Source: a virus. Taken from it: 28,458 bases of DNA. Positions within the stretch are counted from its first letter, which is position 1, and each line of letters opens with the position of its first letter. The DNA lies in IMG/VR virus record IMGVR_UViG_3300021389_000114, positions 1 through 28,458 of that record; one strand, given 5' to 3'. Shown here piece by piece: positions 1-8,516 of this stretch. The translations under genes and the position numbers were made by a program. The notes under the pieces were generated by a model, which ran no database searches, was not told where the DNA came from, and worked only from the letters and a program-made list of their open reading frames with translations.

Positions 1-2133
1 GCCACCAGTAAATGTACCAGTACCTACTGTGAATTTATCTTCACTTTCATCATAACCTATAAATGCGTTATTTGAATCTCCTCTTTCAATTACTATACCA
101 GCGTCTCCGTTTGGAGAACCTGTAGTTCCTGTACCTAATTCTATGAGTGTATCAGCGATTGTAGTTGTAGTAGAGCTTACAGTCGTTGTTGTACCGTTTA
201 CTGTTAAGTTTCCTGAAAGTGTAACGTTTCCTGTGAATGTTTGACCACCTAATGCATCTGATTTAAGTTCAGAAGCTGATACTGCATTTGCTGATATTTC
301 ACTGTTAGTAACAGCATTTGCGGCTATCTTTGCTCCTGTTACAGCATTACCTGCTATATGTATTGCATCAATAGAGCCAGAGATTAATTCTGCGCTGTCT
401 ACTGAATTAGATGCTAGTTCGCTTGAACCTACAGCACCACCATTGATGTGTCTTGCTAGTATTTGGTCTGTTGCAATTTTTGCTGAAGTAACTTGGTTAG
501 CTGCGATATGTATTGTGTCAATACTACCTGATGCTATTTCTGAACTATCTATTGAGTTTTCAGCTATGTGTGTTACATCTATAACACCTGTACCTATCTT
601 TGCAGCAGTAATTGAGTTGTTTCCTAAGTGTATAGTATCTATACTACCTGTTACTAATTCTGCTGAATCTACTGAATTAGCTCCTAAGTGGTCTGCTGTT
701 ATTGTTGCTGTAGGTATGTGTCTTGCAACGATTGAATTTTGTGCTATCTTAGTCCCATCTACTGCGTTATCTGCAATATTGGCTAAAGCTATTGTGTTGG
801 CGGCAATTTTAGCGCCTGTTACTTGTAAGTCGCCTATATGTGCGGTATCTATACTGCCGTCTACTAAATGTTCTGAATCTATTGAGTCATCTGCGATTTT
901 TGAGCCATTTACTGCATCTGCTCCTATTTTTCCACCAGTTACTGCTCCTGTACCTATTTTTGCTTCTGTTACTTGTGAAGCTCCAATATGTATAGTATCA
1001 ATACTACCTGATACAAGTTCAGAACTATCAATTGAGTTTGCAGCTATTTGTGCAGAACTTACACTATTAATTCCTACATTGGAACTATTTACTACTGCTT
1101 TCCAACCCATATTACCATGTGCTGAACATTGGTAATACAATATTTGAGGAGTAGTACTTGTAACAGCAATTTCTGTGTATGCACCTGAACTTCCTGCTGT
1201 TCCGCTAGTTGTAACTCCTGTGGTATAAGCCGTTGTTTTATTGGCTTCTAAATAAAATCTGAAAGGATGATTGGCATTTGACGAATCATCTTGCTTAAAT
1301 TTATAGCTATTCCCAGGTTGTAATACTAATACTGGAGACTCTTTGCCTTCGAACTTATATCCTAGAGTGCTACCATTTCCATAGTCTCCGTGTGCGGAAG
1401 TTTTTGTAACAACCGTTACATCATATTCATAAGTTCCAAATTCTTGAATTGATTTTGCGTTCTTGTGTATTTCACTTGAAGTAACATTATCACCAGCTAT
1501 TTTTGCTGAAGTAATATTATTTGTTGCTATTTTAGATGTTGTAACTTGTAAGTCTCCTAAATGGTAACCATCAATACTACCTGTTACTAGTTCACTAGAG
1601 TCTACTGAGTTTGCACCAAGTTGTGTTGAAGTAATACTCCCATCAGCAATATGATGAGCAGTAACTGCATTTTGGGCAATCCTCGCTGTTGTTATTTGAT
1701 TCTCAGCAATCTTAACCGTAGTTATAGCATTATCAGCTATCTGTAATGTCTCGATTGCATTTGTTGCTATCTCTGAAGTGTCTACTGAGTTTGCAGCTAT
1801 CTCGTTGGAAGTGACAGCGTTAGCAGCTATTTTGGCTGTTGTAACTTGTCCTGTTCCAAGATGAATAGTGTCAATAGAACCACTTACTAACTCACTTGAA
1901 TCTACTGAGTTTGCAGCGATACCTGCGTTTGTTACTGAATTATCCCCTACGCCTGTAACGGCTGTTGCTTGTAGTTGAGCTGCTCCAATAGCATTTGTTG
2001 CTACTTCGGCAGTACCTACAGCGTTTACTGCTATTTCAGAGGCACTAATAGCATTTGCAGCTATCTTTGATGCTACTACACTATTATTTCCTATTGAGTC
2101 TTGTTGTACTAAAAATTTACCGATTAGTGGCAT
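1..2133 (-). CDS. Long tail fibre with decapeptide repeats and an inserted cupredoxin-like domain (3' end beyond window)
   Basis: The frame is open from an ATG at 2133 to the left edge, 711 codons, so the C-terminus is missing. A GGAG ribosome binding site lies at 2144-2147, inside the end of the upstream gene. Residues about 10-225 and 350-625 are ten-residue repeats with the pattern x-x-x-[SAQN]-[VI]-[TD]-x-x-x-[IL], for example AANSVDSSEL then VSGSIDTIHL. Between them, about residues 227-350 form a different domain with a cupredoxin-like ligand set. The last 80 residues switch to fibre-shaft sequence (NVTLSGNLTVNG, then GDAGIVIERGDSNNAF), a type I associate with structural proteins of marine phages. 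The regular period suggests a trimeric beta-helical or beta-prism shaft, which is inference. Its place as the last gene of the tail cassette fits a receptor-binding or distal fibre. Product class is confident; receptor and fold are not known. Confidence 0.85.
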   Translation of the reverse strand, partial: MPLIGKFLVQQDSIGNNSVVASKIAANAISASEIAVNAVGTAEVATNAIGAAQLQATAVTGVGDNSVTNAGIAANSVDSSELVSGSIDTIHLGTGQVTTAKIAANAVTSNEIAANSVDTSEIATNAIETLQIADNAITTVKIAENQITTARIAQNAVTAHHIADGSITSTQLGANSVDSSELVTGSIDGYHLGDLQVTTSKIATNNITSAKIAGDNVTSSEIHKNAKSIQEFGTYEYDVTVVTKTSAHGDYGNGSTLGYKFEGKESPVLVLQPGNSYKFKQDDSSNANHPFRFYLEANKTTAYTTGVTTSGTAGSSGAYTEIAVTSTTPQILYYQCSAHGNMGWKAVVNSSNVGINSVSSAQIAANSIDSSELVSGSIDTIHIGASQVTEAKIGTGAVTGGKIGADAVNGSKIADDSIDSEHLVDGSIDTAHIGDLQVTGAKIAANTIALANIADNAVDGTKIAQNSIVARHIPTATITADHLGANSVDSAELVTGSIDTIHLGNNSITAAKIGTGVIDVTHIAENSIDSSEIASGSIDTIHIAANQVTSAKIATDQILARHINGGAVGSSELASNSVDSAELISGSIDAIHIAGNAVTGAKIAANAVTNSEISANAVSASELKSDALGGQTFTGNVTLSGNLTVNGTTTTVSSTTTTIADTLIELGTGTTGSPNGDAGIVIERGDSNNAFIGYDESEDKFTVGTGTFTGG
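260..1080 (-). repeat. Second block of about 27 decapeptide (30-bp) repeats in the fibre gene
   Basis: After the cupredoxin-like insert the same ten-residue pattern resumes and runs for about 27 units, ending near SANAVSASEL. A paired unit of the form ANSVDSSEL plus xSGSIDTIHx recurs roughly every 30-50 residues, giving a higher-order period. The motif SIDTIH makes short DNA stretches such as ATTGACACAATA recur many times. Confidence 0.85.
1085..1455 (-). other. Cupredoxin-like domain inside the tail fibre
   Basis: About residues 227-350 of the fibre break the decapeptide pattern. The segment has strands such as YEYDVTVVTK and VLVLQPGNSYKFKQ, then NANHPFRFYLE, then QILYYQCSAHGNMGW. The ligand candidates are His289 (codon 1267-1269), Cys336 (1126-1128), His339 (1117-1119) and Met342 (1108-1110). 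Small blue copper proteins use exactly one upstream His and a C-terminal Cys/His/Met cluster; plastocyanin spaces the cluster C-x2-H-x4-M, whereas here it is C-x2-H-x2-M. The upstream HPF followed by hydrophobic residues and the closing YYQC resemble periplasmic cupredoxins. Copper binding is an inference from the motif; the domain could also be a metal-free structural beta sandwich. Confidence 0.6.
1456..2106 (-). repeat. First block of about 20 decapeptide (30-bp) repeats in the fibre gene
   Basis: Translation of the minus strand gives about twenty consecutive ten-residue units, for example ATNAIETLQI, ADNAITTVKI, AENQITTARI and AQNAVTAHHI. Hydrophobic residues at positions 5 and 10 are nearly invariant. 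One irregular unit (around QATAVTGVGDNSVTNAGI) falls about residue 50. The DNA copies are diverged, so this is a protein-level repeat and not a recent tandem duplication. Confidence 0.85.
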
Positions 2134-5333: not shown

Positions 5334-5749
5334 GATGCCCTCGCTGTTACTACTTCGAATCCATAATCAAAGTAGCCTACTTTTTTAAATATTATCTCAA
5401 ATTGTCCTGGGTCGTTGAATGTTAAATTTAATGTTGTGTCAGACATTGTTGTTTTTAAAACATTATCTATCCATACTTGAGTTCCTGTTGGTATTCCTGT
5501 AATAGACAATGGAGTTTCTAGTGCAGGAGAGTATGTACTAATTGTAGGAGTAAAAGTTGATTTTAAAATAACTCCATCTTCATCCTCATTTACATAGTAT
5601 CTATTTGCATCTAGTACATCGTCTTGTTGCACAGTTATATGACTAAGTCCTAACTCTGCTTGTTCCTGGATTATACCAGGAGTAATTCCATTATCTACTG
5701 TCCAGTGAATAAATTTGTTTGAGTCGTAAAATACGTTCCATGTTTTCAT
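5330..5749 (-). CDS. Minor tail protein with PEGA-like C-terminal domain
   Basis: A 139-residue protein. Residues 1-60 start MKTWNVFYDSNKFIHWTVDN. From about residue 75 to 136 it reads like a PEGA or Ig-like surface repeat: LSITGIPTGTQVWIDN, a Thr-rich linker, then FNDPGQFEIIFKKVGYFDY. PEGA-type domains are small beta sandwiches found on cell and virion surfaces. The start overlaps the stop of the 512-residue gene (ATGA). A tail-tip or fibre-adaptor role is inferred from the neighbours. Confidence 0.6.
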   Translation of the reverse strand: MKTWNVFYDSNKFIHWTVDNGITPGIIQEQAELGLSHITVQQDDVLDANRYYVNEDEDGVILKSTFTPTISTYSPALETPLSITGIPTGTQVWIDNVLKTTMSDTTLNLTFNDPGQFEIIFKKVGYFDYGFEVVTARAS

Positions 5750-7284
5750 AAACTTTCTCCATTTTTAAAGTTTTCTTCGTGAAATATAATTAAGGCATAA
5801 TAAATATCCTCATCATACCCTATTGTTGTTTCTGTAAATCCCCCATAATAATTATATTGTTTGCTATATGTTTTATTAATAGCTTCTATTGAAATTACAT
5901 TATTATTACTTGCTGCGGTATTTGCAGCTAGTTGATAATGTTTTAGAGTTATACTATTACTTGCATAAGCATTTATCATTCTGCTTTCCTCTTTCCAAGG
6001 AGTATAAGCAACAATTGCATCTGGTGTGGTTTTAGAATTTTGTCCTGTTAGTAATGAGGGAATAAATGAACCATACCAAACGCCTCCCACTACATCAACT
6101 CCATAAGTTGTACCTGATGTATTTCTAAAAGTAACTATGAATTTAAAATCGCTTCTCCCACCTGAACCAGCACCAGGCGTAAAGTTTAATCCCATCTTTG
6201 CTCTAAAAGATACAATGTCTCCTTGAGTTGACCCTTGTCGACTAAACTCAAGGTTGTTCACTGTAGTTGAGGCATTATAACTTGCAGGAATAGTTTGTGG
6301 TGTGTCTACCCTGACATAGTAGCCATTATCTTGAACTCCTACAGCCCCTGTGCTATTTGCATTTTGATTTTGTAAATCAAAACCTAATTTTATATCTACT
6401 TGAATCCAGTTGTCTTTTTCTACATTATAGTAGTTTTCTGAGCTTCCTCCATATATTCCAGGGTCTGTAAATTGTGCATATTGTCCAAAGCTATGTGAAG
6501 TAGTCACTTCTAGTACATAGTCTCTTCCCGCATATTCTTGTTTTACTCTTGGACGCATTGCCATACTTCTATGAGCAGGTTCTTGATATTGATTACCATA
6601 ACTTCCTCTAGAAAATCTTAAAGCATATGCAGGAACTGTTGTAGACGTTAAAACATCATGATTCTTCCCCCAGTTATGAGTTATATTTACTCCAGCATGT
6701 CCTCTGTTTCCATTCCAATAACTATTATTACTTGTTTGCAGTATTCCTTGATGTACTTCATATACTGAGAGTCCTCCGCCAATATGACCCCCTGAATCAA
6801 ACGTAGTGCTTTCTAATGTTCCTTCATCTACTCCGATTACATTTGCTCCCGCGTACGGACTTGCTGATGTACCACTTCCACTAGAAGTATCTATCCCAGA
6901 TACAAAAGCTCCTCGTCCTCCCTCTGCTCCAATAACAATTGGAGTATTAGAGTATGCTGTCTCTCCATAGTCATTTAATCTTACTAAAGGTGCGGATACT
7001 CCTCCTGGTGGCGAAGCCTGTGAACCAAAGTAAGTTTGATAAGAACCTGTACCTTGATATGTCCAATCATCTTCTACATATGTAGTGCCATCTGGCATTG
7101 TTAGTGTTAAATTTGCAGAAGAATTAAAACTTACTGCATTTGCTAATCTTAGTACTGCTTTTATTCTGTAGTAACCGCCTGAATGTATATAATCATATTC
7201 TACTTGCAATACATTTACAGTAGTTGTTCCATCACTAATTGTAGTTGGTGTTGTTCTTTTTCCTATTACTGCTCTATTTGCCAT
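5746..7284 (-). CDS. Large minor tail protein, unknown family
   Basis: A 512-residue protein rich in Ser, Thr, Gly, Tyr and Asn, which suggests an all-beta virion surface protein. The first residues MANRAVIGKRTTPTTIS resemble the start of the 409-residue protein encoded just upstream (MTKRVALGKLATVHTVS). Aromatic and Gly-rich stretches follow (HSGGYYRIKAVLRL, GGSSENYYNVEKDNW). There is no signal peptide or membrane segment. The start lies two bases after the previous stop, so both belong to one transcript. It probably sits at the tail tip with J. The function cannot be assigned further. Confidence 0.6.
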   Translation of the reverse strand: MANRAVIGKRTTPTTISDGTTTVNVLQVEYDYIHSGGYYRIKAVLRLANAVSFNSSANLTLTMPDGTTYVEDDWTYQGTGSYQTYFGSQASPPGGVSAPLVRLNDYGETAYSNTPIVIGAEGGRGAFVSGIDTSSGSGTSASPYAGANVIGVDEGTLESTTFDSGGHIGGGLSVYEVHQGILQTSNNSYWNGNRGHAGVNITHNWGKNHDVLTSTTVPAYALRFSRGSYGNQYQEPAHRSMAMRPRVKQEYAGRDYVLEVTTSHSFGQYAQFTDPGIYGGSSENYYNVEKDNWIQVDIKLGFDLQNQNANSTGAVGVQDNGYYVRVDTPQTIPASYNASTTVNNLEFSRQGSTQGDIVSFRAKMGLNFTPGAGSGGRSDFKFIVTFRNTSGTTYGVDVVGGVWYGSFIPSLLTGQNSKTTPDAIVAYTPWKEESRMINAYASNSITLKHYQLAANTAASNNNVISIEAINKTYSKQYNYYGGFTETTIGYDEDIYYALIIFHEENFKNGESL

Positions 7285-7286
7285 GA

Positions 7287-8516
7287 TTAAAAAATTGCCA
7301 ATGAATGTACTCTTGGTTCTAAACTGAATTTTACCGTTGCCGCTGATTCTAGTGTAAAACTGTAGCTTGTAAATAAATTATCTGATGAAGAAGTATAAGT
7401 TACTGAAGAAGTAGGTGACGAAACTAATGGAGTTGGTGCTATTGCATATGGATTGTAAAAAGATAATGTTTGAGTTTGATTAGAACCTGTAGTAGTAAGT
7501 GTACTAGTTATTGAAGGAATTGCAGCACTTGTTCCTATTACATCAGCATAGTTAGTAGCTAATTTTTGGTCATCTCCTCTATACGCTATTCCTGCCACTC
7601 CATTATCTGTACCTAGTATTAAATCATCTATCTCACAAGAATCAACATCATACCCAGGTCTTGATACATAAAGCCCTCCAGCATTAGAAAAACCTGCTGT
7701 GCTATTTGTAAACTTTCCTGATATTACTCTTTTCTTTCCTTTTGTAGGAGTATATGCATGTTGATAATTAGCCCCGTCTGCATAATAAAGCTGATTCATA
7801 TAGCCATAAGCGCAAGGTAATCTTAAAACTTTAAAAGATAAATCTTCACATAAATTTAATGATTGTCTTGCTACATTTGAAGTTCCGACTTCTATCCAAG
7901 GGCCTTGTCCTGTATAGAAAGAAGCTGCTCGAATAGGTTGAATTGAATCTTCTCTTGTAGCTATCTGTTCTGCTATACTATTATTTGCAAATGTGCTTAG
8001 AGAGCCTATTTGCTGATGTACTGTTCTAAAACCTTGTTTCTTTTCGTCATGAGTAATTAAAGGAATGTAGTTTAAAAAATCATCTCCTCTTTTGAAATTT
8101 ACTTCTGCACTTGCACTAGACTGAAATCCTTGTGCATAAATAACGCCTCTTCTATCGCTTCTACTGTCAAAAAGTAAATCTTTCTGTCCTACTTGGTCTA
8201 CGTTTGCATTTTGTTTTGCAACTTTTAGTCCGTATTCATTATAATCTGCATAAAAAGTGCCGTTTACAGGTAAATACTGAGTACTTATATTATGACTTAA
8301 AACTATATCCCAAGTGCCTCCATTTCCAGATTGATTTTTATGAGTTACTCTTGCATTTGTACCCGCAATGTTATTAGTTCCATCTATACTAATGTAAGCT
8401 CCCACTCTTATTGCTTCTGCATTTGTAACGTTATAATATCCTGTCGCACTTGTAGAAGCACGCTGACTTACTGTATGTACTGTTGCTAGTTTACCTAGGG
8501 CTACTCTCTTTGTCAT
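7287..8516 (-). CDS. Minor tail protein with GK-motif N-terminus
   Basis: A 409-residue protein directly after J, sharing the TAATG overlap. The N-terminus MTKRVALGKLATVHTVS and the internal phrase GGLYVSRPGYDVDSC resemble small tip proteins of siphoviruses that carry an xRxxxGK start and a VSKPGxDV-like motif, followed by a region of the KDLLFDSRSDRRG type. The C-terminus has short beta segments ending near VKFSLEPRVHSLAIF. It is likely a tip or fibre-adaptor protein bound to J; this is inferred from position and general similarity, not from a named family with a known role. Confidence 0.65.
   Translation of the reverse strand: MTKRVALGKLATVHTVSQRASTSATGYYNVTNAEAIRVGAYISIDGTNNIAGTNARVTHKNQSGNGGTWDIVLSHNISTQYLPVNGTFYADYNEYGLKVAKQNANVDQVGQKDLLFDSRSDRRGVIYAQGFQSSASAEVNFKRGDDFLNYIPLITHDEKKQGFRTVHQQIGSLSTFANNSIAEQIATREDSIQPIRAASFYTGQGPWIEVGTSNVARQSLNLCEDLSFKVLRLPCAYGYMNQLYYADGANYQHAYTPTKGKKRVISGKFTNSTAGFSNAGGLYVSRPGYDVDSCEIDDLILGTDNGVAGIAYRGDDQKLATNYADVIGTSAAIPSITSTLTTTGSNQTQTLSFYNPYAIAPTPLVSSPTSSVTYTSSSDNLFTSYSFTLESAATVKFSLEPRVHSLAIF

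Follow-up and report, generated by a model that had tools for sequence, protein, structure and literature searches.

A predicted cupredoxin domain with a co-conserved type-1 copper ligand set in the tail fibres of marine phages

The fibre gene and its inserted domain

The viral DNA analysed here (the window; 28,458 nucleotides, IMG/VR record IMGVR_UViG_3300021389_000114) carries at its first positions a tail-fibre gene that is open at the window edge. The visible part encodes 711 amino acids, and full-length relatives (L231, L233) encode about 1,290. Elsewhere the window encodes a major head protein, a major tail protein, a tape measure, a minor tail protein and a tip protein of the J-like type, a gene set that suggests a long-tailed phage. 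Two large proteins adjoining the J-like tip protein (5746-7284 and 7287-8516, minus strand) gave no significant PHROG match. The features of the fibre gene are as follows.

1..2133, minus strand: tail-fibre gene, 711 amino acids visible, running off the window edge (matches to phrog_892 and further tail-fibre families)
1444..2133, minus strand: N-terminal fibre shaft, amino acids 1-230 (decapeptide repeats, PHROG)
1078..1443, minus strand: cupredoxin domain, amino acids ~231-352, inserted in the shaft (AlphaFold2, PDB matches, comparison with sister fibres)
1267..1269, minus strand: codon of His289, putative N-terminal copper ligand, in an HP motif (invariant in alignment A1; just before model strand 61-64)
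1126..1128, minus strand: codon of Cys336, putative thiolate copper ligand (invariant in A1; last residue of model strand 101-106)
1117..1119, minus strand: codon of His339, putative second His ligand (invariant in A1; in the loop that leads into the last strand)
1108..1110, minus strand: codon of Met342, putative axial ligand (invariant in A1; amicyanin spacing)
1..1077, minus strand: shaft repeats after the cupredoxin domain, amino acids 353-711 (the gene runs past the window)

The decapeptide shaft on either side of the domain was matched by PHROG tail-fibre families. We compared the window gene with sister fibre genes (L237-L246, L249), which are 74-85% identical to it over the first 117 amino acids and share their C-terminal end with its relatives. 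In these sister fibres the shaft runs through the same position without the domain, indicating that the domain is an optional insert. The earlier note on this DNA had described a domain interrupting the shaft at 1085-1455; the insertion is borne out by the sister fibres, and the boundaries found here lie about 10 bases away.

Translation of the open reading frame placed H289, C336, H339 and M342 at the positions and in the order that had been reported, with the closing YYQC present. C336 is the only Cys in the 711 amino acids and M342 the only Met besides the start, both at ligand positions, and in the complete relatives the sole Cys is likewise the ligand. When the composition of the reading frame was shuffled, the pattern H-x40-55-C-x2-H-x2-M appeared in 2 of 20,000 trials; conservation among homologues, given below, is the stronger test of the putative ligand set. 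No HxH motif was present in the 711 amino acids of the fibre or in its complete relatives, and an HxH iron site was rejected on this ground.

Predicted fold and relation to known cupredoxins

The domain was modelled alone, a check that the earlier note had proposed, using AlphaFold2 with 33 homologues. The result was a confident cupredoxin fold with nine strands (pLDDT 95, pTM 0.88). In Foldseek searches, the best solved structures were rusticyanins (E 2.9e-4), followed by multicopper oxidases, while VIA-align placed a domain of the Hyphomicrobium copper nitrite reductase (residues 24-134) first, with a Z of 9.8 and 2.5 Å over 100 residues. A second model was built for L080, a relative sharing 45% identity with the window domain (12-row alignment, pLDDT 91.8). 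Its top PDB match was 2ux6, a pseudoazurin engineered to carry the ligand loop of amicyanin (E 4.4e-4), followed by the Hyphomicrobium nitrite reductase and further pseudoazurins, and the top VIA-align match was again the nitrite reductase cupredoxin domain (Z 9.7). Both models have the Greek-key beta sandwich of about eight strands that marks the cupredoxin fold superfamily.

In the model of the window domain, H59 (H289 of the fibre) immediately precedes a strand, C106 (C336) ends the next-to-last strand, and H109 and M112 (H339 and M342) lie in the loop preceding the final strand. This predicted placement is the classic type-1 copper topology. The fold models and strand positions thus agree with the initial description of a cupredoxin-like domain carrying a complete type-1 ligand set in the right order. 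Giant-virus 'beta-sandwich proteins' in BFVD also matched the fold of the window domain (best E 7e-9), namely A0A481Z6J5 (Pithovirus LCPAC302), A0A481Z7Q7, A0A481YY19 and A0A481YWX9.

At the level of plain sequence the signal was faint. One relevant PDB match was obtained, to pseudoazurin (E 0.5, or 0.027 with a profile), and its alignment spans YQC..H..MG. The window domain had no match to PF00127 (Copper-bind) and remained below its gathering cut-off; among the 33 family members, one matched PF00127, with an E of 0.076. The At5g54830-like domain PF25489 scored 20.6 bits against window positions 1078-1443 (E 4.6e-4), under its cut-off of 27 bits, and this plant family may be a distant cupredoxin relative.

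We then compared profiles, as had also been advised. The phage family matched a profile of eight cellular PF00127 proteins with a probability of 94.7 and an E of 5.7e-8, and the alignment brings the first His, the Cys and the second His into register. A profile of plastocyanins only gave a weak match (probability 43), and the link of the phage family to PF00127 goes via cellular proteins of the HPFYIKT type. These cupredoxins of Prochlorococcus and Bacteroidetes (L124, L127, L126) score above the PF00127 cut-off and can be aligned to the phage family; they differ from it in being cellular and are about 30% identical, and L126 has the C-x2-H-x2-M spacing.

Amicyanin, pseudoazurin and plastocyanin (PF00127) have the fold, the ligand set H...C-H-M and the ligand topology in common with the phage domain. 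However, they are small soluble electron carriers, whereas the phage domain is a virion-fibre insert below Pfam detection, and its N-terminal His lies in an HP motif rather than PH. The C-x2-H-x2-M spacing, which had been taken as a possible mark of a distinct subfamily, is present in the window domain and is not new, because it is the ligand loop of amicyanin. Amicyanin itself appeared neither in the sequence matches nor among the best 50 fold matches.

Conservation and distribution of the domain

H, C, H and M were all invariant in the 33-row alignment A1. All four ligands were kept in 195 of 200 collected domain copies, part of this set having been collected with a pattern containing CxxHxxM. 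In a set assembled without the CxxHxxM scan (46 copies at <80% identity), which keeps loci found with query peptides, one of them spanning the C-terminal H and M, or with an N-terminal-H pattern, the first H was kept in 44 of 46 copies and C, H and M in 44 of 45 each, against a mean column conservation of 0.60. Cultured phages located by tblastn showed agreeing ligand conservation.

The five deviating copies were informative as well, since ligands were lost jointly in four of them and the fifth is truncated. In L112 and L113, the first copy (at L112:1365 and L113:1320) has none of the four ligands and the second copy in the same protein is intact; in L184 and L191, the Cys and the second His were lost together; and in L116 the truncated second copy is without the first His. 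Judged from sequence, such joint keeping and joint loss is the behaviour of a shared metal site. Homologues failing to conserve the Cys, both His and the Met had been named as evidence that would count against the copper-site reading; in the collected copies these residues are conserved and tend to be lost together. Chance residues in an unrelated fold were ruled out by the fold, the conservation and the joint loss.

To describe the spread of the domain, 50,697 phage records were searched. The window domain as query matched 30 records, L080 matched 127, and the divergent query L096 matched 320. By organism name, nearly all matching records were Synechococcus, Prochlorococcus, Pelagibacter or Methylophilales phages or cyanophages, and a scan of IMG/VR yielded at least 544 confirmed matches. 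The domain was found in tail fibres of Melnitz, P-SSM2, Bellamy, Mosig, HTVC028P and Baldr, in the gp9 baseplate wedge tail fibre connector of S-ShM2, P-SSM4 and P-RSM4, in a P-SCSP2 protein with tail-fibre PHROG matches, and in other virion proteins. These results show that the domain, implied by the first description to be a single case, is common in marine cyanophages and SAR11/OM43 phages and occurs in several types of structural protein.

The gp9 of P-SSM4 has a T4 gp9/10 N-terminus (Pfam above cut-off, with PDB matches) and the cupredoxin at its C-terminal end. Cyanophage gp9 proteins (L217, L218, L219) resemble T4 at the N-terminus and then continue into a different C-terminal part, with the cupredoxin last, at the fibre-connector end. 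Two PHROG families, phrog_30742 (tail fiber) and phrog_677 (baseplate wedge tail fiber protein connector), contain the cupredoxin domain, yet they are named solely as tail proteins, and neither cupredoxin nor metal appears in their names. A fold is now assigned to a domain that databases know merely as a tail protein. The P-HM1 protein PHM1_104 (L225:1560-4243) has a subtilase (Peptidase_S8) and two copies of the cupredoxin type in one chain, and one of the copies gives a weak PF00127 match.

The closest cellular copy seen was in Actinomarina, in a Thr-rich, lipoprotein-like protein (L104:4374-5279; 46% identity over 85 amino acids). It is the same domain with all four ligands; unlike the fibre, the protein is cellular and the domain lies behind a Thr-rich linker. 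The gene adjoins an FAD/NAD oxidoreductase gene, with a cytochrome b561 gene near, perhaps as a cell-surface redox or copper system, and the copy is cellular, judged by these neighbours. Three further Actinomarina genomes (L102, L106, L109) also encode a Thr-rich lipoprotein-like protein ending in the same cupredoxin domain. A copy in a SAR11 single-cell genome (L090) was dropped as a cellular example, because its neighbours look viral; the sole Pfam names among them were a peptidase M15 and a 2OG oxygenase. The P-SCSP2 copy and the Prochlorococcus cellular cupredoxins have HPFYIKT in common, and transfer between marine cells and phages, in either direction, is plausible.

Proposed role of the site and alternatives

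Cellular cupredoxins are known to carry electrons or to form parts of enzymes. Searches of an open-access library, which covers few subscription journals and no preprints, turned up no report of a cupredoxin in a virion. The fold itself is known; what appears to be new is a structural role for it as a module in phages.

Computation establishes the fold, the complete co-conserved type-1 ligand set, the location in tail proteins and the optional insertion. By homology, conservation, confident fold and comparison of sister genes, the segment is a genuine cupredoxin domain whose type-1 (blue) copper site, complete and under selection, has the amicyanin loop, and which is displayed on the virion as an optional shaft module. 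We consider our explanation as a whole somewhat probable. The site would quite probably hold one copper per chain. Phage fibres are usually trimers, and a trimeric fibre would carry three coppers. Free copper is vanishingly low in the cytoplasm, where fibres fold. As fibre assembly is cytoplasmic, filling with copper would most likely take place once the cell has lysed. The main use may be adsorption, with the face of the ligand loop docking to a partner on the surface of marine bacteria; we would give this step slightly less than an even chance.

The adsorption reading would be the copper counterpart of the metal-loaded fibres of the Ferrojan Horse hypothesis, in which iron-binding HxH fibres are represented by the T4 gp37 tip and alterophage R22Y (PMC11705849). 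Both proposals place a metal on a phage fibre in a marine setting and connect it with attachment. In the HxH fibres, however, iron sits at the trimer axis via HxH pairs, whereas the putative site described here lies within one chain and includes a thiolate.

Three points stand against the copper and attachment reading: the domain lies mid-shaft and not at the tip, folding in the cytoplasm makes copper loading hard, and some phages carry copies that lack the ligands. The mid-shaft position of the domain fits a purely structural metal, an alternative that we regard as somewhat unlikely. According to this explanation, the filled site would lock the loop, shield the lone thiol in oxygenated seawater and stiffen a spacer or branch-point module, with no receptor role. 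C336 being the sole Cys of the fibre is consistent with it, as is the presence of the domain in gp9 connectors, which are joints and not adhesins. However, ordinary beta domains stiffen fibres without metal, and ligand-less copies persist in some structural proteins.

Those ligand-less copies bear on a further alternative. The fold has some use without copper, because some phages carry such copies, and the domain might be a metal-free adhesin or spacer of the virion throughout, its ligands kept for thiol chemistry, loop shape or similar. The difficulty of loading a site during cytoplasmic assembly points the same way. Nevertheless, H, C, H and M are retained as a set across widely divergent copies and also disappear as a set, and co-variation with a His some 47 residues distant is not what a side chain kept only for loop shape would show. 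We consider a metal-free domain rather improbable.

We judge it very unlikely that the domain transfers electrons, with the virion exchanging them at the host surface and, for example, triggering fibre rearrangement. Its structural neighbours are all redox copper proteins and the Actinomarina copy lies beside redox genes, but the window encodes no electron partner and a fibre has no evident need for electron transfer. A carbohydrate-binding or other beta-sandwich domain merely resembling a cupredoxin is highly improbable and largely refuted. In its favour are weak Pfam CBM_4_9 scores in 8 of the 33 members (best E 0.0017); against it, two independent models best match blue copper proteins, the ligands are invariant, and the cellular copper-protein profile match reached an E of 5.7e-8. 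Bulk copper scavenging is an unlikely purpose, because by our own estimate ~1e10 phages per litre with tens of domains each would hold <1 pM copper.

Returning to the copper and adsorption reading, we tentatively propose that a large fraction of the tailed phages of the sea (picocyanophages and phages of SAR11 and OM43) may carry copper-loaded blue copper domains on their fibres and baseplates, with the copper working in adsorption or triggering, which would make this the first cupredoxin known as a structural part of a virus; it is somewhat more doubtful than the presence of copper in the site itself. Should the site bind copper, some of the most common viruses of the ocean may need a supply of it for infection, and the long-discussed but little-tested idea that phage tails reach marine hosts with the help of metal becomes testable with a small domain. 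This small, expressible domain occurs in the cultured phages P-SSM2, Bellamy and HTVC028P. The copper ligands are also lost in domain copies of Syn1 (L222) and S-H9-2 (L227), and ligand-less copies represent natural apo controls.
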